Shown one piece after another: positions 23,743 to 35,740 of a stretch of DNA of 35,740 nucleotides. A model generated the notes under the pieces. It saw only the letters and a program-made list of their open reading frames with translations. It searched no databases and was not told where the DNA came from. Numbering within the stretch: the stretch's first letter is position 1; each line of letters starts with the position of its first letter. A program made the translations under genes and the position numbers. The DNA comes from Pseudomonadota bacterium. GTDB lineage: Bacteria > Desulfobacterota > Desulfobulbia > Desulfobulbales > SURF-16. Location of the stretch: NCBI GenBank assembly GCA_018816555.1, contig JAHIVT010000004.1:1-35740 (forward strand). Direction: 5' to 3'.

Positions 23743-24573
23743 TTACAGTTCGTTTGGTAATTGTCTGAGCTGAGCACGGGTGAACACGGGGCCGTCCATG
23801 CACACATAGCTGGTGCCTATATTGCAACGGCCGCATATTCCCACCCCGCATTTCATGCGTTTTTCCAGGGTGGTGACAATCTGTTCATCCTTGAAGCCGA
23901 GCTTTTCCAAGGCCTGCAGGGTAAACTTGATCATGATCGGCGGGCCGCAGGTGATGGCCACGCTGTTTTCCGAACTTGGGGCTATATCGAGGAGCACGTT
24001 GGGAATGAGACCCACCTTGTGTTCCCATCCCTCGTATGGGGCGTCAATGGTCAGGTGCGTATCCAGGTCATCGCGTCCCAACCAGTCCTGCAGTTCATAA
24101 CTGTAGGCCATGTCAACCGGGGAACGTGCCCCATAGAGCAGGGTGATTTTGCCGTAATCACCCCGGTTGTCCAGCATGTACAGCAGCAGAGTACGCAGGG
24201 GCGCCATTCCGATGCCGCCGCCGACAAAGACAATATCCTTGCCCTTCATATCCTCATAGGGAAACGAATTGCCAAGGGGTGCGCGCACGCCTATCTGATC
24301 GCCGGCCTTGAGAGAATGCAGTTTGCTGGTCACTTCACCGGTGCGCATGACGCTGAACTGCAGATAATCCATGCGCGTGGGCGGCGAATTGATAACAAAG
24401 GTGGCCTCGCCGGTGCCGAAGGATGAGACCTGTCCCACCTGACCCGGCTTGAAGGAGAAATTTTTCATGGCTTCGGGGTTGTTTAAGGTAACCCTGAAGG
24501 TCATGATATTATGGGTTTCCCGGATGACTTCCTGGATGGTTGCCATTTCCGGCAGATAAATATTTTTGGTCAT
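23743..24573 (-). CDS. flxA: FlxA: NAD(H)- and FAD-binding oxidoreductase subunit with [2Fe-2S] site
   Basis: The 276-residue protein is like PyrK and ferredoxin-NADP reductases. An FAD-binding barrel (FKPGQVGQVSSFGTG, INSPPTR, VRAPLGNSFP) is followed by a nucleotide fold (DIVFVGGGIGMAPLRTLLLYML) and a C-terminal cysteine set, CGVGICGRCNIGTSYVCMDGP, for a [2Fe-2S] cluster. In Desulfovibrio vulgaris FlxA is the proposed NADH entry point of the Flx-Hdr complex. It is the last gene of the operon, 3 bases after flxB, with GAGGAG before its ATG, and is followed by the terminator. Confidence 0.92.
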   Translation of the reverse strand: MTKNIYLPEMATIQEVIRETHNIMTFRVTLNNPEAMKNFSFKPGQVGQVSSFGTGEATFVINSPPTRMDYLQFSVMRTGEVTSKLHSLKAGDQIGVRAPLGNSFPYEDMKGKDIVFVGGGIGMAPLRTLLLYMLDNRGDYGKITLLYGARSPVDMAYSYELQDWLGRDDLDTHLTIDAPYEGWEHKVGLIPNVLLDIAPSSENSVAITCGPPIMIKFTLQALEKLGFKDEQIVTTLEKRMKCGVGICGRCNIGTSYVCMDGPVFTRAQLRQLPNEL

Positions 24574-24576
24574 GTC

Positions 24577-25644
24577 TTACTCCTCAACCGCTGCGGGCAC
24601 AAAATCAATGGCCTTCAGCACGATTTCGCGAATGTCTATACCGGCAGGGCAGCTTTTGATGCACCTGCCGCAGCCGCAGCAGGATATCACTCCCCCATGG
24701 ATGGTGGGATAGTAGCTGAACTTATGGCCAACCCGATTTTTCAGCCGGTGGGCCTTGGTGGGGCGCGGATTGTGACCGCTTGCTTCCATGGTGAACTGGG
24801 CTGACATACAGTTGTCCCAAGACCTGAGCCTTTTACCCTTCATGCCGGTGGTTTCATCGGTGATGTTAAAGCAATAACAGGAGGGACAGAGGTAGGTGCA
24901 GGCTCCGCAGCTGAGACATTTAGCCGATACTTCTTCCCAGAATTCCATGTTGTCAAAGACGGCCAGCAGTTTTTCCGGAGCCAGGGTCAGGTCTTTCGTG
25001 TTGTTGATGGAACCGGCGATCTCCTGACATATTTTTTCCGCTTCGGCTCTCCTGGATGATCCGTCGGCCAGCAGTTTTGAGTTGAGCAGTTTTTCGCCCT
25101 GCTCAGAGACAGACTCAAGCAGATAGCCGTCGTTCACCGGAATGGCCAGCACATCGGAGCCGGTGGGATCACAGGGGTCGCTGTCCACCCAGTTGCAGAA
25201 ACAGGTGTTTTCGATTGTCCTGCAGGCCAGGGTAATGAACAGGGTGTTCTTCCTGCGGGCCTGATAGTAGATATCTGGGTTTTTATCGGACAGATAGACC
25301 CGGTCAAACATGGTGAAGCCCCGGGCGTCACAGGGCCGACTACCGAAGACCACCGTACTCCCTTCGGGGAGATTTGCCTTGGCGTCGATCTTGATCCTGC
25401 TCAGATTTTCCGGATCTTTGCTGTAGGTGAAATCAACCAGCTTTTCACTCTGGGGAAAGATCGTCTTTTTGGGCGGCATGGTGGCTGCACGGTCAAGGAC
25501 AATCTCCTGCTCCGGGTCAAAGGGACGGAAGAGCAATGCCTCGCCGTCATAACTCGGGGCAAAGACCCTGTGTTCCTTTGCCAGTTCCGCCAGCCAGGGC
25601 TTCACATCCGCTGATTTAATGAATTGGACCTTCGCCATTACCAT
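24577..25644 (-). CDS. flxB: FlxB: electron-transfer subunit with two [4Fe-4S] sites
   Basis: The 355-residue protein resembles the A subunit of anaerobic sulfite reductase and related hydrogenase ferredoxin subunits. Two cysteine groups, CLSCGACTYLCPSCYCFN and CCGCGRCIKSCPAGID, fit [4Fe-4S] clusters. A further cysteine-rich stretch, CRTIENTCFCNWVDSDPCDP, lies in the middle. It probably passes electrons between FlxA and the other subunits. The start ATGGTAATG overlaps the flxC stop by 7 bases, so translation is coupled; the second ATG (25636-25638) is an alternative. Confidence 0.88.
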   Translation of the reverse strand: MVMAKVQFIKSADVKPWLAELAKEHRVFAPSYDGEALLFRPFDPEQEIVLDRAATMPPKKTIFPQSEKLVDFTYSKDPENLSRIKIDAKANLPEGSTVVFGSRPCDARGFTMFDRVYLSDKNPDIYYQARRKNTLFITLACRTIENTCFCNWVDSDPCDPTGSDVLAIPVNDGYLLESVSEQGEKLLNSKLLADGSSRRAEAEKICQEIAGSINNTKDLTLAPEKLLAVFDNMEFWEEVSAKCLSCGACTYLCPSCYCFNITDETTGMKGKRLRSWDNCMSAQFTMEASGHNPRPTKAHRLKNRVGHKFSYYPTIHGGVISCCGCGRCIKSCPAGIDIREIVLKAIDFVPAAVEE

Positions 25645-26594
25645 TCCCTCTCTTTGATATTCTCTTCTTCCATCTTGAAGGAGAGCAGGGGCGGAGTAGC
25701 TTCAGGGTCGACTCCTGCCTCATATTGAAATAGTTCTTTGATTTCCTTGTTCATTTTTTTCTTCAGCAGGAGCAGCGGAATATCCATGGGACAGGCCCGC
25801 TGACATTCACCACACTCGGTGCATCGTCCGGCCAGATGATAGGCATGGATCAGCTGAAACATCCATTTGTCCCGGACACTGTCTTCCTGGCTCAACCAGT
25901 GCGGGTCGCGGCTTTCGGCCAGGCAATGGTCGCGGCAGACGCACATGGGGCAAGCGTTGCGGCAGGCGTAACAACGGATACAGCGGTCCATTTCCTTCTG
26001 CCAGAAGGCGAAGCGCTCGGGCAAAGGCATATTTTCAAAGGCCTCCAGGTCGTCGCCGCCTTCAGTCTGAGCGGAGGGGCTTATTTTCTCCCCGACAAAA
26101 TGGTCGGAGATCAGGGCATTGGGGTACTGGCAGGAAAAACACTTGTCCGCCAGCACCTTGGACAACCGCAGTTTATGCTCCTCGCCGCCTGCACCGATGA
26201 CAACCGTCTGGGACGCTATCTGACAAAAATCAACCTTGCCGGTATGACCCAGGGCCTTACGGATTTTTGTCTGGTCAACCACGCCTGTACAGGGGAAACC
26301 GAAAATGGTGACGTCTTCCCGGTTGATCAGATTTTCCTGCAGCAGTTCTATGACGGAACGGCTGTCGCAGCCCTTGACCACAATACCGACCTTCTTGCCG
26401 CGCAGTCCGGGGAGATAGGTTGCCAGATTATGCACGCTGAACGGTCCTATCTCAAGCCGGTCGATATCTTCTTCCCGGCGGATGAAGTGGGGGGTGGCAT
26501 GCAGGGGATCATATCCCGCGCTCCAGGCTATAACCACATCAAGACCCGGCAGGGCCTTTCTGATGCTGTCTTTTAGTTCTTGTTGATATTTCAC
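25638..26594 (-). CDS. flxC: FlxC: iron-sulfur electron-transfer subunit
   Basis: The 318-residue protein has an FrhB-like N-terminal part (VGIVVKGCDSRSVIELLQENLI, FGFPCTGVVD) and two ferredoxin-type cysteine sets, CIRCYACRNACPMCVCRDHC and CTECGECQRACPMD. It also has CFSCQYPN in the middle. It should link flavin and Fe-S centres within the Flx module. The start is GTG (26592-26594) with AAGGAG five bases upstream, 24 bases after flxD. Confidence 0.88.
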   Translation of the reverse strand: MKYQQELKDSIRKALPGLDVVIAWSAGYDPLHATPHFIRREEDIDRLEIGPFSVHNLATYLPGLRGKKVGIVVKGCDSRSVIELLQENLINREDVTIFGFPCTGVVDQTKIRKALGHTGKVDFCQIASQTVVIGAGGEEHKLRLSKVLADKCFSCQYPNALISDHFVGEKISPSAQTEGGDDLEAFENMPLPERFAFWQKEMDRCIRCYACRNACPMCVCRDHCLAESRDPHWLSQEDSVRDKWMFQLIHAYHLAGRCTECGECQRACPMDIPLLLLKKKMNKEIKELFQYEAGVDPEATPPLLSFKMEEENIKEREW

Positions 26595-26618
26595 TGGTTC
26601 TCCTTTGGGGCGCAGAGC

Positions 26619-27083
26619 TTAGAGGACTGCTTCCATCTGCCTCAGTGTCGCCGAGGCCTCCGGTCCGGCAATTTTCGGGGCCGGGCCGAGTTTGTGAATC
26701 TGTTCTGTGAACCGGGTCACCACCTGCTGCCATCGCTGGCCCTCTGATGCCGAGACCCAGGTATATTCAAATCTGCCCGGCTCAAAACCGAGGATGGGCA
26801 GAAATCTGTGCAGCACCTCCAGCCTTCTGCGGGCATAAAAGTTGCCCTCCGCATAGTGGCAGTCCCGGGGATGGCAACCGGAGACCAGCACGCCGTCTGC
26901 TCCGTTCATCAGGGTTTTCATGATAAACAGGGGATCGATCCTGCCGGAACAGGGAACCCTGATAATGCGCAGGTCGGTGGGCTGATTAAAGCGTCCCACA
27001 CCCGCGGTATCGGCGCCGCCGTAGGAGCACCAGTTACAGAGAAAACCTACAATACGAAGCTCCTTACCTTTTAAAACTGGCAT
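26619..27083 (-). CDS. flxD: FlxD: MvhD-like [2Fe-2S] linker subunit
   Basis: The 154-residue protein matches the MvhD/HdrA-linker family: GFLCNWCSYGGADTAG, RVPCSGRIDPLFIMKTLMNGADGVLVSGCHPRDCHYAEGN. Five conserved cysteines supply a [2Fe-2S] cluster. In methanogens MvhD connects hydrogenase to HdrA; here it should connect FlxABC to HdrA. The gene starts 13 bases inside the end of hdrA, with GGAGG upstream, which fits a tight FlxD-HdrA partnership. Confidence 0.92.
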   Translation of the reverse strand: MPVLKGKELRIVGFLCNWCSYGGADTAGVGRFNQPTDLRIIRVPCSGRIDPLFIMKTLMNGADGVLVSGCHPRDCHYAEGNFYARRRLEVLHRFLPILGFEPGRFEYTWVSASEGQRWQQVVTRFTEQIHKLGPAPKIAGPEASATLRQMEAVL

Positions 27084-29029
27084 AGGGCGTTAACCTCCGA
27101 AAGAATCTGGTTGTCGGTAAAATGCTGGAGTTGGGCCGCTCCCTGGGGACAGGTTGAGGTGCAGATACCACAGCCCTGACATACTGTTTCAATGACTTCG
27201 GCCTTTTTCATGCCACGGAAGTCAATCTCCTTGATGGCGCCGAAGGGGCAGGTTTTCATGCACTTGCCGCAACCGATGCAGCGTTTGATGTCCACCACGG
27301 AAACCTGTGGGTCGCTTGCCAGCTTATCCTTGGAGAAGAGCCCCAGCACCTTGGATGCGGCGGCGCTGCCCTGAGCGACCGAGGAGGGAATGTCCTTCGG
27401 CCCCTGGCAGGATCCGGCCAGATAAACGCCGGCGGTGTTTGTTTCCACCGGTTTGAGTTTCGGGTGGCCTTCCATGTAAAAGCCGTAGGAGTCGTAGGAG
27501 ATGCGCAGTTTTTCCGCCAGTCCCGCGGCACCTGCTGCCGCCTCGGCGCCAACGGCCAGCACGACCAGGTCTGCATCCACTTCAACCTGCGTTCCCATCA
27601 GGGTGTCGGCGCCGCGCACCAGCAGACTGTCGCCCTTGGGATAGATCATGGACACCCGGCCTCTGATATATTTGGCATTGTATTCTTCCATGGCCCGGCG
27701 GGTGAACTCGTCGTAATTTTTCCCCGTAGCCCGGATATCCATATAAAAGACATAGGTCTGGGACTCGGGCAGGTGGTCCTTGGTCAGGATGGCCTGCTTG
27801 GCGGTATACATGCAGCAGAAACCTGTGCAGTACGGACGGCCCACGGATTTGTCCCGGGAACCCACGCACTGGATGAAAACCACGTTTTTCGGTTCCTTGC
27901 CGTCCGACGGGCGCTTGATATGGCCGCCGGTGGGGCCGGAGGCTGACAGCATGCGCTCATACTGCAGGGAGGTAATGACATCCGGATAGCGTCCGCCGCC
28001 ATATTCGCCGTAAACGGTCCAGTCAAACAGATCAAAACCCGTGGCCGCAACGATTGCGCCGACCTTCTCCGTGACAAATTCATCCTGCTGGGTGAAGTCA
28101 ATGCATCCGGACGGGCAGACCTTGGCGCAGATGCCGCATTTGCCCTTCTGCAGTTTCATGCAGAAATCGGCATCGATCTTGGCCTTTTTCGGGATGGCCT
28201 GGGGAAAAGGGATATTGATGGCCGTGGTCTTGCCGATCCCTTCGTTAAAATAATCCGTGGCCTTTTTACTGGGGCATTTCGTCATGCAGATGCCGCAGCC
28301 CGTGCATTTATCCCAGTCCACATAGGTGGCCTTCTTTTTCACCTTCACATCAAAGTTGCCCACATAACCGCTGACCTCTTCAATCTCCGAGTAGGCATAC
28401 AGGGTGATGTTGGGATGCTGGGCCACGTCAACCATGCGCGGACCGAGGATACAGCAGGAGCAGTCAACCGTGGGAAAGGTCTTGTCAAGTTTTGCCATCT
28501 TGCCGCCGATGGTAGTGGTCTTTTCCACCAGCACCACTTCAAGGCCGCCTTCCGCACAGTCCAGAGCCGCCTGGATTCCCGCTACACCGCCGCCGATGAT
28601 CAGCACGCGTTTATTGATGTCGAACTGCTTGGAAAGAAGCGGCCGGTTGTGCAGCAGTTTTGAGGCTGCCATGCGCACCAGGTCGGTGGCCTTATTGGTA
28701 TTGGCTTCGCGATCTTTGCCGATCCAGGAAACATGCTCGCGGATGTTGGCCATCTCAAAGAGATAACGGTTCAGCCCGGCACGTTCCACTGTGCGGCGGA
28801 ATGTCTGTTCGTGCATGCGCGGCGTACAGGATGCTACGACCACGCCATCGAGCTGATGCTCCTTAATGGCGTTAACGATTTCCTCCTGTCCCGGTTCGGA
28901 ACAGGTGTACATGGTATCGGTCGCAAAGGCCACGCCGGGAAATTCCCTGGCTGCCGCTGCTACTGCTGCGGTGTCAACTGTACCTTCGATATTGCTGCCG
29001 CAATGACAGACAAAAACTCCGATTTTCAT
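27071..29029 (-). CDS. hdrA: HdrA: FAD-containing electron-bifurcating subunit of heterodisulfide-reductase-type complex
   Basis: The 652-residue protein starts MKIGVFVCHCGSNIEGTVD. It binds FAD through a Rossmann motif near residue 146 (IGGGVAGIQAALDCAEGG) and has four ferredoxin-type clusters: CTGCGICMTKCPS and CGICAKVCPSGC in the middle, CIGCGKCMKTCPF and CQGCGICTSTCPQ at the end. The HdrA signature cysteines (DCSCCILGPRM, CCMYTAKQA) are present. This is the predicted flavin bifurcation site, sending electrons from NADH to ferredoxin and to HdrB. No selenocysteine is apparent. ATGA overlap with hdrB; AAGGAG upstream. Confidence 0.95.
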   Translation of the reverse strand: MKIGVFVCHCGSNIEGTVDTAAVAAAAREFPGVAFATDTMYTCSEPGQEEIVNAIKEHQLDGVVVASCTPRMHEQTFRRTVERAGLNRYLFEMANIREHVSWIGKDREANTNKATDLVRMAASKLLHNRPLLSKQFDINKRVLIIGGGVAGIQAALDCAEGGLEVVLVEKTTTIGGKMAKLDKTFPTVDCSCCILGPRMVDVAQHPNITLYAYSEIEEVSGYVGNFDVKVKKKATYVDWDKCTGCGICMTKCPSKKATDYFNEGIGKTTAINIPFPQAIPKKAKIDADFCMKLQKGKCGICAKVCPSGCIDFTQQDEFVTEKVGAIVAATGFDLFDWTVYGEYGGGRYPDVITSLQYERMLSASGPTGGHIKRPSDGKEPKNVVFIQCVGSRDKSVGRPYCTGFCCMYTAKQAILTKDHLPESQTYVFYMDIRATGKNYDEFTRRAMEEYNAKYIRGRVSMIYPKGDSLLVRGADTLMGTQVEVDADLVVLAVGAEAAAGAAGLAEKLRISYDSYGFYMEGHPKLKPVETNTAGVYLAGSCQGPKDIPSSVAQGSAAASKVLGLFSKDKLASDPQVSVVDIKRCIGCGKCMKTCPFGAIKEIDFRGMKKAEVIETVCQGCGICTSTCPQGAAQLQHFTDNQILSEVNALCQF

Positions 29030-29931
29030 TGAGACTTCTCCTTGGAATTACCTTCCATGCCGAGGGCATCTATGACTGTGCGGGGATTCACGCAGAGCTT
29101 GTCAATGCCCAGTTCTTTTTCCGTAAGGCCGAAGGCCAATCCCATCAACTGGGTAAAGTAGAAAATCGGCATATGATGCTTTGAGCCATTGGCGCTGTTG
29201 ATCTGTTCCTGCCGCATGTCCAGATTCATCTGGCACAGGGGACAGGCGGTGACCAGGGCCATGGCGCCCATTTCTTTAGCCGTGTCCAGCAGCTTGCCGG
29301 AAAGCCGCATGACCACATCCTTGCGCGGGATGCCGAATGATGCGCCGCAGCACTCCACCTTGAGCGGGAACGGCACAACGGTTGCCCCCAGGGCTGTCAT
29401 GATGTTGTCCATGGCCATGGGATGTTCGCGGTCGTCAAAGTTCATGATTTCGGCCGGCCGGTTCATGATACAACCGTAATAGGCGGCAACGGTGAGACCC
29501 GTCAGGGGCTTTTTCACCTTTGCCTTGATTTTCTCGATACCGTAATCTTCCACCAGTATCTGCAGCACCGATTTGGTCTCAACGGTGATGTCGGCCGGTT
29601 TGTCCAGCAGCTTGCTGACCTTTTCCCGGAAACTGTCATTTTTCATGCGGTGTTGTGCCGTCTTCAGGTTGGACAGACAGCTGGGACAGGGGGTCACAGC
29701 CGCGGTCAGACCCATGGAGGCCACCTGGCACAGATTGCGGGCGGAAAGAGCGGACGACAGGGTGTGGTCAACAGTATGAGCAGGGGTGGAACCGCAGCAG
29801 CTCCAGTTGGGGACATCGGTCAGTGTAATGTCAAGAGCGGCGCAGATGGCGCGGCTGGACATGTCATATTCTATGGATGTCCCGGTGCTAGAACAGCCGG
29901 GATAGTATGCGTAAGTTAAAGAAACGCTCAT
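29026..29931 (-). CDS. hdrB: HdrB: CCG-domain catalytic subunit
   Basis: The 301-residue protein has two cysteine-rich CCG segments. The first reads YYPGCSSTG...NWSCCGSTPAH...TPCPSCLSN and the second YYGCIMNRP...VECCGASFG...TACPLCQMN. In methanogen HdrB these hold two non-cubane [4Fe-4S] clusters that cleave a disulfide. Sulfate reducers lack the methanogen CoM-CoB heterodisulfide; the proposed partner is the DsrC disulfide. It shares 4-base ATGA overlaps with hdrC and hdrA. Confidence 0.95.
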   Translation of the reverse strand: MSVSLTYAYYPGCSSTGTSIEYDMSSRAICAALDITLTDVPNWSCCGSTPAHTVDHTLSSALSARNLCQVASMGLTAAVTPCPSCLSNLKTAQHRMKNDSFREKVSKLLDKPADITVETKSVLQILVEDYGIEKIKAKVKKPLTGLTVAAYYGCIMNRPAEIMNFDDREHPMAMDNIMTALGATVVPFPLKVECCGASFGIPRKDVVMRLSGKLLDTAKEMGAMALVTACPLCQMNLDMRQEQINSANGSKHHMPIFYFTQLMGLAFGLTEKELGIDKLCVNPRTVIDALGMEGNSKEKSQ

Positions 29932-30488
29932 TTTGACGACTCCTCTGTATAGCGACGAAAAATTTTAGAGACCTCTTCCTTGCCCTGCATGGCTGACGGC
30001 TTGAAATGAATCTTGCCCTTGGGCAGAACCTTGGGACCAAGGCCCATATCCGTCCAGAATCTCCCTGTATGGGATATGTAATTTGCCAGCAGGCCCACTT
30101 CAAAAACCCGGCCATTCTTTTGGACGGAATGCAGAAAAGAATCCCAGAAGGTTTTTACCGTCTTTACTCCGCCATAGCCTTCGCGGCGTGCCATATGACG
30201 CAGTACGTCCATAATGCGGGCCACGTCGATTTTGTTGGGACAACGGGCGGTGCAGGATTCGCAGGTGGCGCAGAGCCAGAGTGATTTTGACTTGAGAACC
30301 AGCTCCTTCTGTCCCGCCTGGGTCAGGCGCATGATCTGGCTGACCGGGATATCGTATTCGGTCGTATAGGGACATCCTGCCGTGCATTTACCGCACTGAT
30401 AACAGAGGCTGAGCTGCTGGCCGCTCTCCTCTTCCACCTGTCTGACGAAATCAGAGTTACATGATGATGTTAAATTGATTACGTTCAT
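29928..30488 (-). CDS. hdrC: HdrC: [4Fe-4S] electron-transfer subunit
   Basis: The 186-residue protein carries two four-cysteine motifs, CYQCGKCTAGCPYT and CATCESCTARCPNK, and passes electrons from HdrA to HdrB. Length and layout are typical of HdrC. It is the first hdr gene after adh, with a 107-base gap that contains a stable hairpin. Its ribosome site (GGCGAG) is modest, whereas hdrB and hdrA follow by overlaps. Confidence 0.94.
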   Translation of the reverse strand: MNVINLTSSCNSDFVRQVEEESGQQLSLCYQCGKCTAGCPYTTEYDIPVSQIMRLTQAGQKELVLKSKSLWLCATCESCTARCPNKIDVARIMDVLRHMARREGYGGVKTVKTFWDSFLHSVQKNGRVFEVGLLANYISHTGRFWTDMGLGPKVLPKGKIHFKPSAMQGKEEVSKIFRRYTEESSK

Positions 30489-30541
30489 ATTCTTGCTCGC
30501 CGCCTTTATTTGCCCTTTTACTGTTTAAATCCCTGCGAATC

Positions 30542-30567
30542 GGGGAGCGGGCTCTCACCCGCTCCCC
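30542..30567 (-). promoter_or_regulatory. Strong stem-loop between adh and hdrC
   Basis: A perfect 10-bp GC-rich stem (GGGGAGCGGG and its complement, loop of 6) lies between the adh stop and the hdrC start. On the minus strand it is not followed by a U-run, so it is not a classic terminator. It could slow polymerase or protect the 3' end of a processed adh mRNA, giving more adh than hdr-flx transcript. On the plus strand TTTTTTTT appears 18 bases further on. Confidence 0.55.
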
Positions 30568-30595
30568 AATATGTAAAGATGTCCGTTTTTTTTAA

Positions 30596-31777
30596 TTACA
30601 GTGCTGCTTTGTAGATGGCTGCAACGTCAGCATCTTTCGGACAACGGGGATTGGTGAAACCACAGGCGTCTTTCTGAGCATTACCTGTCATGGTTGCGAT
30701 ATCTTCTTCCTTCACATCCTTGCCATAGCGTTTGCCGAGGGCAATCAGTCCGTCCGGGATACCGACGTCGGCGGACAGTTTCTTGATGGCAACGAGAGCC
30801 AGTTCAGCCGCATCGCGGGGTGCAAGACCATTAACGTTCTCACCCATCAGTTGGGCGATTTTGACGAAACGGTCAATTTTGGCGATCAGGTTGAATTTGG
30901 AAACATGGGGGAGAAGGATGGCATTGCACTCACCATGGGGCAGGTCGTAGAAACCGCCGAGCTGATGAGCCATTGCATGAACGTGACCGAGGCTGGCGTT
31001 GTTGAAAGCCATACCGGCCAGGTACTGGGCGTAACACATACCTTCACGGGCAACGATGTCACTGCCGTTTGCCACTGCGGGACGCAGGTGCTGGGCGATG
31101 AGCTCGATGGCTTTTTCCGCTGCGGAGTCGGTCATCGGGGTAGCGATGGTGGAAACGTAAGCCTCAACCGCATGGGTCAGAGCATCCATACCGGTGGCTG
31201 CGGTCAGCGCAGGCGGCATACCCATCATCAGCAGCGGATCATCAAGGGCGATACCGGGGGTTACACGCCAGTCAACGATAGCCATTTTTACCTTGCGGCT
31301 GGTATCGGTGATGATGCAGAAACGGGTCATTTCAGAAGCGGTACCTGCTGTGGTGTTCACGGCAACGTAAGGAGGCATGGGTTTGGTGGATTTGTCCACG
31401 CCTTCGAAATCGTGAATTTTGCCGCCATTAGCAATAACCAGGCCTACACCTTTACCGCAGTCATGGGAGCTGCCGCCGCCCAAGGTGATCAGGCTGTCAC
31501 ATTTGTTTTTCTTGTAAATTTCTACGCCCGCATGGACGTTATTATCTGTGGGGTTCGGAATGGTGTCGTCGTAAACAACGAAATCCATGCCGGCTTCAGC
31601 CAGAAGGTCGGTGATTTTTTTGGTGATGCCTGCGCCGGTGATACCTTTGTCTGTGACGACCAGAGGTTTGCTGCCGCCCAGGGCTTTGATCTTTGCGGGA
31701 ATTTCCTTGTGAGCGCCAATACCGATGAGAGTTACGCTGGGAATGAAAAATCCGTAAACTTGTTCGCGTACAGCCAT
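30596..31777 (-). CDS. adh: Iron-containing alcohol dehydrogenase
   Basis: The 393-residue group III alcohol dehydrogenase has the NAD-binding LGGGSSHDCGKGVG, VNTTAGTASEMTRF, and metal ligands in TGMDALTHAVEAYVS, HVHAMAHQLGGFYDLPHGECNAILLPHV. It interconverts primary alcohols such as ethanol and their aldehydes with NAD(H). In Desulfovibrio vulgaris an adh gene lies beside flxABCD-hdrABC and the complex is linked to ethanol metabolism; the same pairing is present here. The start has AAGGAAGG upstream. Expression is expected to depend on sigma-54 from the promoter at 31865-31879. Confidence 0.96.
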   Translation of the reverse strand: MAVREQVYGFFIPSVTLIGIGAHKEIPAKIKALGGSKPLVVTDKGITGAGITKKITDLLAEAGMDFVVYDDTIPNPTDNNVHAGVEIYKKNKCDSLITLGGGSSHDCGKGVGLVIANGGKIHDFEGVDKSTKPMPPYVAVNTTAGTASEMTRFCIITDTSRKVKMAIVDWRVTPGIALDDPLLMMGMPPALTAATGMDALTHAVEAYVSTIATPMTDSAAEKAIELIAQHLRPAVANGSDIVAREGMCYAQYLAGMAFNNASLGHVHAMAHQLGGFYDLPHGECNAILLPHVSKFNLIAKIDRFVKIAQLMGENVNGLAPRDAAELALVAIKKLSADVGIPDGLIALGKRYGKDVKEEDIATMTGNAQKDACGFTNPRCPKDADVAAIYKAAL

Positions 31778-32493: not shown

Positions 32494-34347
32494 TCAAGAA
32501 GATAATTGACGTTGATCATGAACCTCAAAATGGGAGTCATTCCTGCCCCCCACAATTTCCATAAGTTGCGTTACCAATGCATTGAGTTCTTGAGCTTGTC
32601 TATACAACTCTTCCGACGCCCCCGCAGATTCTTGGGCGCTGGCAGCGTTCTGTTGAACTACTGTGTCCATTTCCGATACCGCTCTATTGACTTGGTCAAT
32701 GCCTAGCGCCTGTTCTTTTGATGCCGCCGAAATCTCAGCAACGAGGGTTGCCACTTTCCCAGCGCTTTCCTGAATAGCCGATAAAGCTTTGGCAACTTCG
32801 GACGTCACATTCACTCCAGCCTCGGCGTTCTTCATGGCGCCCTCTATCAAATTCGCTGTGTTTTTAGCCGCCTCGGCACTACGTTGCGCCAAGTTGCGGA
32901 CTTCTTCGGCTACTACGGCAAAGCCTTTCCCTGCCTCTCCGGCTCTTGCCGCCTCAACAGCGGCATTAAGAGCCAGCAGATTGGTCTGAAAAGCAATTTC
33001 GTCTATGGTCTTGATGATTTTTGACGTTTTGTCGGCTGATGTCTTGATTTTTGCAATGGCATCGGACATGCGTTTCATGGCGTCAATACCGCCTATGACA
33101 ACGGATTGAGAATCCCGCATCAAGTTGTCGGCCTTCTCGGCGTTGTCGGCACTGTGGCGCGTCATGGAGGACATCTCTTCCAACGAGGTGGTACTTTCCT
33201 CCAGACTGGCTGCCTGTTTATTGGCGCCCTGCGCGAGTTGCTGACTGGCGTGAGACACCTGACTGGAGGACGCGTTGACCTGCTCCGCATTTGAACCTAA
33301 AGCGTCGATAACCTGCTTGATGGGCTTGGTGATAGTTTTCACAATAAAAACTGCGATCGCCATGGAAAGTAACAATCCAATGATGATTCCCACACTGATG
33401 AACTGAGATGAAATGGAAATGGTACGGGTCGTTGTTTCCGCTGCCAGGGTCATATCCCCCAAGCCCATGACAGCAATGTTTTTTGCCTGATCGATGATGC
33501 TTTGAGCCAAGATGGTGCGTTTCTTGGCAGACTCTTCCCGCGCCAGCCATTTTTCCGCCAGCTTGGCGTTGGCTGCTTTAAAAGTGAGCATCGCCGATCG
33601 GGATTCTTCAATCTTTTTTAAATCACCTTCAAAAACGCATATCTTCTTCAAAGTATCCAATTTATCATTAGCTATATCAAATATTGCCAGTGTCTCGATA
33701 ATGGACTTTAGATCGCGGTTGAATTGAGCTTTCCAGGTGCCTGTAATGACTTGGTTGCCCAAGTCAATAATGTCCGTAACCAGGGTTATTCGATTGAGTC
33801 GTTGTTCAAGTTGATCACCTTCAAGGCCGGCGATAATTTCACCCTGCATGGCTTCTCTTTGGCTCTCCAGAAAGGAGTTGCAAACTTTCATATATTGGCG
33901 ACTCGATTCTTCAGCTACTTTGCGTTCCTTTTCGAGTTCCTCCATTAATACGACGGTTTCCCCAACAAGTCTTTCGTATTCGAGCACGCCCTGTTCAGCT
34001 TTTTCAGCACCCTCTTTCAGTTTTGATAATAGCGAAGAACTCTGGCCATGATTCACGGCGTTCTTAATGTCTTGTTTGACGTTATCGAGGTATTTTCGGG
34101 CTTCGGCAAGAAATACTGTGTTATCAGTATATTCGTAGCCACGCATCTCCAATAGCATGGAAAACGTATTTCGTTCCATGTTGTTGGCCACGGTGACTTC
34201 CGGCACATAGTCTTGTGAAAGAGTTGCGGCGCATGTCCCGAAACGTTTCATGTTCGTGACAGCTATGATGCCTGTTGCGATTGAAAAAAGGATCACGAAA
34301 CCAAAGCCAAAGCCTAATTTGGCGGCAAGACTTATTCGCTTGAACAT
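32494..34347 (-). CDS. Methyl-accepting chemotaxis protein
   Basis: The 617-residue chemoreceptor has an N-terminal membrane helix (about 13-33), a periplasmic sensor of about 275 residues rich in helices, a second membrane helix at about 312-336 ([21 protein letters not shown]), and a cytoplasmic signalling coil. The conserved hairpin tip [21 protein letters not shown] is at about 449-470. HAMP is short or degenerate: only about 20 residues separate the KPIKQVI start from coiled-coil sequence. There is no CheR-tethering pentapeptide at the end (...RQLSS). The all-helical sensor resembles four-helix or helical-bimodular ligand domains. An exported Cache-domain protein is encoded 79 bases upstream and may deliver the ligand. 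GAGGCG lies six bases before the ATG. Confidence 0.93.
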
Positions 34348-34426
34348 GCAACGCCTCTATCGTTGTGTGGCGCCTCCGACGTGCGTCGGGGTGCCGCGGT
34401 TTATAAAATTTTTCGCTCCTGTCTCG

Positions 34427-34939
34427 CTATTTTGCCAAGGGATAACCGATGTAATAAACTCCCTGGAGTTCGCCGGCCGCGTTATTAATAGGCTCATAAC
34501 CGGTGTCATACTGGCTGCCAAGAATATCAACGACCCCATAAAACACTTCCCCTTTTTGGATGGCTACAATCACGGGTCCATTGGGATCTAGCTTGGTTCC
34601 GACAGCGCGATTGCCTTCTTTCAACACATTGGTGCTGATGCGAATAAACGCATCCCCCTTTTTTACAAAGAACGTGGCCGTGCAACCAAACTGGTCCTTC
34701 AAGGAGTCAACGATCTCATAGTTGCCGTTCATCTTAGTCGTGCCGAAATAAAGTGAAATTCCATCCGCCCTGGGCTCGCCAAGCTTTGCGGCCATGTCTT
34801 TCATGAGGGTCATGGCTTCTTTGATTTTTGCGGAATATTCAGTTTCCGCCTTGGTGGTAAATGCACCTCCCAGTACCTGAAAAAGAACAAACAAAATCAC
34901 CATCGGTCTTACACAGTGTTTTAACGAGTTTTTAATCAT
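34427..34939 (-). CDS. Exported single Cache-domain protein
   Basis: The 170-residue protein has a signal peptide (basic start, hydrophobic VILFVLFQVLGGAF, cleavage likely after TTKA). A Cache_3/Cache_2-like fold follows (GCTATFFVKKGDAFIRISTNVLK, GPVIVAIQKGEVFYGVVDILGSQYDTGYEPI, GELQGVYYIGYPL). This fold is normally the extracellular sensor of chemoreceptors and kinases, binding small organic acids or amino acids. Here it stands alone, with no membrane anchor or signalling domain, immediately upstream of a chemoreceptor on the same strand. It may be a periplasmic ligand-binding partner, or a sensor domain separated from its receptor. Confidence 0.85.
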   Translation of the reverse strand: MIKNSLKHCVRPMVILFVLFQVLGGAFTTKAETEYSAKIKEAMTLMKDMAAKLGEPRADGISLYFGTTKMNGNYEIVDSLKDQFGCTATFFVKKGDAFIRISTNVLKEGNRAVGTKLDPNGPVIVAIQKGEVFYGVVDILGSQYDTGYEPINNAAGELQGVYYIGYPLAK

Positions 34940-35605: not shown

Positions 35606-35740
35606 GTGCGGCCGGGCAAGGTCGCATATTCGAGCGGGTGCGAAGCCCGCCCCGGAAGGGCTAGCCCCCCACCGGGTAGCGAGTCCTTGGACCAAAGGGG
35701 GTAACTCCTGCGGTTAAGCGTAGGACAGCGAGACGGCAGG
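35606..35740 (+). mobile_element. 5' end of a group II intron (continues beyond window)
   Basis: The sequence begins GTGCG, the conserved group II intron 5' end. It at once forms a hairpin (TGCGGCC 35607-35613 with GGTCGCA 35620-35626), followed by a GCGGG...CCCGC stem and CCGGAAGGGCTAGCCCCC. It continues with GCGAGTCC...AGCGTAGGACAGCGAGACGG. This G+C-rich, open-frame-free layout resembles domain I of bacterial group II introns. The reverse transcriptase gene and domains V/VI would lie outside the window, so the identification rests on the 5' end only. Confidence 0.55.

Follow-up and report, generated by a model that had tools for sequence, protein, structure and literature searches.

The window analysed here is a 35,740-base stretch of DNA that constitutes one entire contig of a host genome of 4.93 Mb in 183 contigs. 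On its minus strand it carries a gene for a lone Cache domain with a predicted secretion signal, followed after a gap of 79 bp by the gene of a chemoreceptor (MCP), and the features on which the following discussion rests are these:

34427..34939, minus strand: lone Cache gene, 170 aa, with AGGAG 5' of the ATG (Pfam and fold prediction)
34847..34939, minus strand: predicted signal peptide, residues 1-31, putative cleavage at TKA/ETE (sequence; hydropathy)
34430..34846, minus strand: mature Cache domain, in which R100, T103 and T115 correspond to R142, T145 and T158 of PacF
34348..34426, minus strand: intergenic gap with a predicted hairpin, core at about 34370-34397, no U-run (RNA folding against shuffles)
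32494..34347, minus strand: chemoreceptor (MCP), 617 aa (open reading frame; Pfam)
33400..34257, minus strand: periplasmic helical sensor, HBM-like, here called type A (aligned relatives and model)
32659..33090, minus strand: MCP signalling domain PF00015 (Pfam)

The plus strand of the window carries at 35642-35740 a group II intron fragment (Rfam RF02005, 57.9 bits), which is cut by the contig end. Adjoining the pair, at 23746-31777 on the minus strand, lie genes with FlpD, Fer4 and FAD/NAD domains, which may be read from these domains as an Flx-Hdr electron-bifurcation cluster, and then an iron alcohol dehydrogenase; that the taxis is linked to alcohol or formate metabolism is only a guess.

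The predicted signal peptide of the Cache protein reaches a hydropathy peak of 1.94, as against at most 1.37 in the mature part, and the sequence contains neither a second hydrophobic segment that exceeds 1.4 on the same scale nor a lipobox Cys. Residues 62-168 match the Cache superfamily above the Pfam cut-off (PF17201 at 2.2e-30 and PF17202 at 3.1e-28, the latter with 98.7 bits against a cut-off of 28.8), and these Cache profiles are the sole Pfam matches at E up to 1, with no solute-binding-protein profile among them. The structural model, built from seven sequences and confident (pLDDT 89.6, pTM 0.86), is a single PAS-like Cache, and model and profiles together place the protein outside the bilobal solute-binding-protein families. 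The solved structures nearest to the model are 8py0 (Z 21.5, 1.8 Å over 139 residues) and 8py1 (Z 18.8), which Foldseek also ranks at the top and which are both chemoreceptor sensor domains with bound formate; the third structural match is CitA (Z 13.4).

In PacF, the residues R142, T145 and T158 are reported to influence formate binding (PMC12501870). Alignment with 8py0 puts R100, T103 and T115 of the window protein at matching places, with a one-residue spacing difference before the last, and the Arg/Thr/Thr set is retained in all 14 lone Caches as well as in all 11 fused relatives. By profile, by modelled fold and by this Arg and two Thr, the protein belongs with the formate-binding sCache family, and its pocket, as judged from these residues, is the pocket of that family; since the fused relatives keep the set as well, it marks the family and not the ligand of the window Cache, so that conservation of this breadth cannot prove what an individual member binds. 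The ligand is probably formate or a similar small acid, and for formate itself we regard the chances as roughly even. A heme Cache (sCache_heme, DUF3365/Tll0287) was considered and rejected, as the mature parts of the 14 members contain no CXXCH and only 0 to 2 Cys.

The downstream receptor matches MCPsignal at 1.9e-42 in Pfam and has two hydrophobic segments, marked by 19-residue windows whose maxima begin at residues 12 and 317; the Pfam scan of the window receptor returned no Cache match. The only sensor-family match of its aligned sensor sequence is 4HB_MCP_1 at E 0.0012, below the cut-off, and HBM (PF16591) is not matched at E up to 1. Of the 23 aligned type A members, 21 have a match to 4HB_MCP_1, and 18 reach Pfam HBM at E up to 1, the best value being 6e-14. 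A model of the sensor built from four sequences (pLDDT 76.8, pTM 0.63, low at both membrane ends) has six helices. Among solved structures it comes closest to McpS (Z 19.2, 237 residues) and to LytSN of the XylFII-LytSN complex (Z 17.2, 122 residues), followed by McpZ (Z 16.9) and by TorS as solved in TorS-TorT complexes (Z 16.0, 251 residues); all exceed the Z of about 13 under which, according to the note of the structure-comparison tool, matches between helical bundles mean little. When the sensor sequence was searched against solved structures, two matches emerged, at E 2.2 and 2.5. Aligned relatives and modelled fold thus assign the window sensor to the HBM type without a Pfam HBM match of its own. 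HAMP is unmatched in the window MCP (32494-34347) and in one other receptor of the same sensor type (L005:732-2528), and is above the cut-off in two more (L006 and L007). The initial annotation had claimed a secreted lone Cache upstream of a receptor with an unrelated helical sensor, and both parts are borne out, the former by the coordinates, the signal peptide, the Pfam Cache matches and the confident model, the latter by the six-helix model and the lack of a Cache match.

The distribution of the pair across genomes was followed through 14 distinct Cache loci, including the window, of which 7 came from a scan of named genomes and 12 from an order-wide search of 257 genomes, with 5 taken as shared because their contigs have identical lengths (the order search and a class search covered the same 257 genomes, which are counted once). 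Each of the 12 Cache-bearing genomes of the order has one copy at E below 1e-76, and 12 of the 14 loci come from this one order. A phylum sample of 395 genomes yielded the family in three, all of the window's order, and weaker matches (2.5e-24 to 7e-21) in 11 further genomes; in ten of these the match falls within an open frame of 385-917 aa, and in the remaining one (L024) within a frame of 152 aa close to the end of a contig. All seven named loci are from metagenome bins, five with Deltaproteobacteria, Desulfoprunum or Desulfocapsaceae labels, one with a Riflebacteria and one with a Lentisphaerae label, and in the last two transfer and binning error are indistinguishable.

A same-strand MCP is present at 13 of the 14 loci: directly downstream at 11 (the window, L005, L006, L007, L010 and L038-L043), directly upstream at one (L009), and upstream with a rhodanese gene between at another (L004), whose contig ends 155 bp past the Cache gene. 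The contig of the fourteenth (L008) ends 83 bp past the Cache stop, which leaves 13 assessable loci; the receptor of L043 is truncated by its contig end. Pfam scans of all 13 linked receptors found no Cache in any of them. The co-occurrence of the two genes, whose rarity elsewhere would have spoken against the pairing proposed in the initial annotation, is thus upheld, and the linkage is kept in four families of the order.

A total of 190 MCP domains was counted in the 12 Cache-bearing genomes, which together comprise about 37.7 Mb, 24 of the domains being in the window's own genome, and the chance of a same-strand MCP within 2.5 kb downstream is about 0.6% per gene, which compares with 11 of 14 loci observed. 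Cache-receptor pairing therefore exceeds chance, with the qualification that the loci are related by descent and represent fewer than 14 independent events. A better test is offered by gain and loss. With a threshold of 50% identity, chosen after the list had been seen, the sensor type of L010 and L038-L043 (type B) occurs in 7 of 97 genomes, all 7 of them Cache-bearing, and the other three Cache-bearing genomes among those 97 (G020, G199 and G255) have other receptor types. Within genus g54, 5 of 17 genomes have both the Cache and the matching receptor and 12 have neither (Fisher p 1.6e-4).

The 14 lone Caches form one clade separate from the 11 fused Caches, with support of 98/96 in a midpoint-rooted tree that has several long outgroup branches, and this one clade adjoins at least three sensor types. 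The receptors of the window, L005, L006 and L007 are of the HBM-like type A; those of L010 and L038-L043 are of type B, which shows no Pfam sensor match in five of seven and a sub-threshold 4HB match in two, and which we read from sequence as helical; those of L009 and L004 match 4HB_MCP_1 above the cut-off. As assigned from these sequences, the partner receptor of the Cache is not fixed. Type A sensors have a Cys in common, and Cys86 was invariant in the first eight Caches; a disulfide or shared metal site through these residues was rejected, since two of all 14 Caches carry Gly at that position and the L042 receptor is without the Cys of the other type B receptors.

Relatives of both sensor types also occur in other settings. 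Among 22 type A matches, 19 are distant (25-38% identity) and have no adjoining member of the window's Cache family; five of these 19 have a lone sCache_2 beside them instead. Distant type B relatives (33-45%, 13 loci, L103-L115) have a prephenate-pathway gene directly upstream, with no Cache between, in 11 cases (PDH_C and ACT were found in the one that was scanned, the likeness of the others being judged by eye), and at L041 a prephenate-pathway gene that is 78% identical precedes Cache and receptor, so that this site occurs in two states, one of which lacks the Cache. Receptors of both types can therefore work otherwise than with the window's Cache family.

The five distant type A sensors with an sCache_2 neighbour (27-29% identity, in five genomes; L056, L057, L058, L059 and L062) have this other secreted protein directly upstream, and PF17200 sCache_2 is above the cut-off in the four of the five upstream proteins that were scanned. 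When 247 genomes of the phylum were searched for sCache_2, 30 places turned up, distributed over 22 genomes, and of these four fused (L076, L080, L086 and L087) and two cut ones (L067 and L069) were set aside, leaving 24 assessable lone places; the five loci above, being chosen by receptor search, are outside this count. A same-strand MCP lies beside 13 of the 24, downstream at 12 (one behind a second Cache) and upstream at one (L095), and the other 11 have no MCP in the flanks read, as judged by tblastn with six signalling-domain queries, which a divergent MCP could escape. The one behind a second Cache is L070, which forms one tandem pair with L089 and whose MCP has a frame that is broken in the assembly, so that there are 12 distinct sCache_2 receptor loci; two of the 11 places without an MCP (L088 and L092) are likewise one tandem pair. 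Ten of the 12 distinct receptors were scanned and contain no Cache, nine having 4HB_MCP_1 above and one TarH below the cut-off. Two Cache families thus show the same arrangement of a lone Cache beside a receptor.

Some architectures met in the sCache_2 search are of interest in their own right. L076 (1498-3096, minus strand) and L080 (872-1984, minus strand) join MCP and sCache_2 in one frame in an unusual order, with the Cache C-terminal; in L082 and L083 a lone sCache_2 gene is preceded by the gene of a 414-415-aa MCP that lacks an evident periplasmic sensor and is followed by that of another MCP (with 4HB_MCP_1 in L083); the MCP adjoining a lone sCache_2 at L117:1093-3552 (minus strand) carries a C-terminal PilZ domain; and the tandem lone sCache_2 genes stand before an MCP in L070/L089 and occur without one in L088/L092.

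The gap between Cache and receptor genes folds, in the window, into an RNA with an MFE of -23.4 (z -2.47, with 2 of 200 shuffles equally stable). In 11 of 11 Cache-to-receptor pairs the gap is more stable than the dinucleotide-shuffle mean (z -1.26 to -5.58); no more than 5 of 200 shuffles reach the stability of the gap in eight of them, and 14 to 22 do so in the other three (L006, L041 and L043). Of the equal-length controls, two upstream segments and one coding segment, out of 11 each, also fall below z -3; the stability of the gaps is a tendency and no proof, and the stems differ in sequence between loci. A terminator between the genes was rejected for the window, L005, L010, L038 and L042, where by eye no U-run follows the stem, and is possible in the gaps of L043 and L006, where the stem is followed by eight U and three U, respectively. 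The hairpin may possibly act as a message stabiliser or as an element setting the ratio of Cache to receptor.

Indirect chemoreception in Escherichia coli is carried out by the pairs of maltose protein and Tar, ribose or galactose protein and Trg, Dpp and Tap, and LsrB and Tsr, in which the binders are bilobal solute-binding proteins of transporters, whereas the predicted binder of the window is a single Cache domain. The sensors of TorT-TorS and XylFII-LytS share the fold modelled for the window receptor, at the Z of 16.0 and 17.2 given above, and the TorS and LytSN structures were solved together with a separate periplasmic protein; TorS and LytS, however, are histidine kinases and not MCPs, and their partners have periplasmic-binding-protein folds and not Cache. 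The formate sCache receptors (8py0 and 8py1; PacF; Atu0526; McpF) are the closest in structure and have the same Cache fold and Arg/Thr/Thr, but their Cache is built into the membrane receptor, whereas that of the window carries a secretion signal.

The E. coli systems resemble the window pair in combining a soluble periplasmic binder with a helical-bundle MCP for indirect sensing. The use of solute-binding proteins for this purpose is established both for chemoreceptors and for kinases, with no Cache named among the binders in the text consulted (PMC9602780). The proposed GlnH-GlnX system of Corynebacterium likewise joins a binder to a membrane partner with a tandem four-helix bundle, but GlnH is a solute-binding lipoprotein, GlnX has no MCP domain, and the paper itself calls the interaction not demonstrated (PMC9769921). 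Stand-alone sCache_heme proteins (DUF3365/Tll0287) are lone Caches too, but have a CXXCH heme and a proposed redox role; a 2026 preprint, in the text consulted, reports this family in over half of Desulfobacterota genomes with no receptor pairing mentioned, and describes more than 90% of Caches as typically fused to signalling modules and lone Caches as highly unusual (PMC12889525). A term search of the text obtained of the Cache survey paper (PMC4822843) found 'stand-alone' absent and 'standalone' used for software only, and a literature search at title and abstract level, covering few subscription journals, brought up no paper in which a lone Cache serves a chemoreceptor, which fits the description of such systems in the initial annotation as little described.

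Cache and receptor are likely a functional pair, and by analogy their best reading is that of a binding-protein-dependent chemoreceptor whose binder comes from outside the solute-binding-protein families. As a working mechanism, the Cache protein would be exported as a soluble periplasmic binder, its PAS-like pocket would take up a small carboxylate, most likely formate, and, loaded or empty, it would dock on the helical-bundle sensor of the neighbouring receptor, shifting the receptor helices and altering CheA activity. It would thereby fill the role that bilobal solute-binding proteins have for Tar, Trg, TorS and LytS, and the intergenic hairpin may serve to maintain more binder than receptor, this stoichiometry and the direction of the resulting taxis being as putative as the docking and the ligand. 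The initial annotation had suggested such a two-part system, with the docking of sugar-binding proteins as its model: this reading is supported in part, by the conserved linkage and by the sensor fold shared with TorS-TorT and LytSN-XylFII, and is refined in two points, in that the partner receptor varies and that a small carboxylate such as formate is a better guess for the ligand than a sugar. We regard a Cache adaptor that binds formate and docks on a helical receptor as the best explanation and as moderately probable, and hold the adaptor reading alone, with the ligand left aside, to be somewhat more probable.

The receptor may instead sense its ligand by itself, as HBM-type sensors can (McpS structures contain malate and succinate), and the Cache protein may be a periplasmic scavenger or delivery protein for transport, metabolism or redox purposes that is merely co-regulated with it. 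The redox roles ascribed to stand-alone heme Caches (PMC12889525) would suit such a protein, as would the 11 of 24 lone sCache_2 places without an MCP in the flanks read, but 13 of the 14 loci share a neighbouring receptor gene, no other neighbour recurs across families in the ORF lists inspected by eye, and the lone Caches are without CXXCH, so that we consider this unlikely. More doubtful still is an inhibitory periplasmic modulator that damps or tunes one or several receptors until its ligand relieves the effect; the several sensor types served by the same Cache clade and the Cache excess hinted at by the gap hairpins would agree with it, but the conserved pocket makes a ligand carrier simpler, though the data do not tell the two apart.

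That the adjacency is functionless descent, with the Cache a fission product of a fused Cache receptor that stayed near a receptor by chance, might be argued from the few known homologs and from the concentration of the loci in one order. Against it stand the persistence of the linkage in four families with different receptor sensors, the g54 genomes with both genes or neither, and the reading frames, signal peptides and pocket residues that are intact in all 14 lone Caches, save for an N-run in the L005 record, and we judge it very improbable.

A wider proposal, in which Cache domains are not built-in sensors alone but have, in at least two families (sCache_3 and sCache_2 types), become free-standing secreted ligand adaptors that can be exchanged for one another on helical chemoreceptors, and in which the adaptor of the window reports formate, is tentative, and we incline slightly against it as a whole. 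For many chemoreceptors with 4HB or HBM sensors no ligand is known. If some of them read through lone Caches, screens on the receptor domain alone would miss their ligands, and the neighbouring gene would name the ligand of the receptor. Such an arrangement would also offer a simple natural route to swap receptor specificity, in which a new small protein would mean a new taste for one receptor shell, and the Cache superfamily would gain the role of a soluble binding protein.
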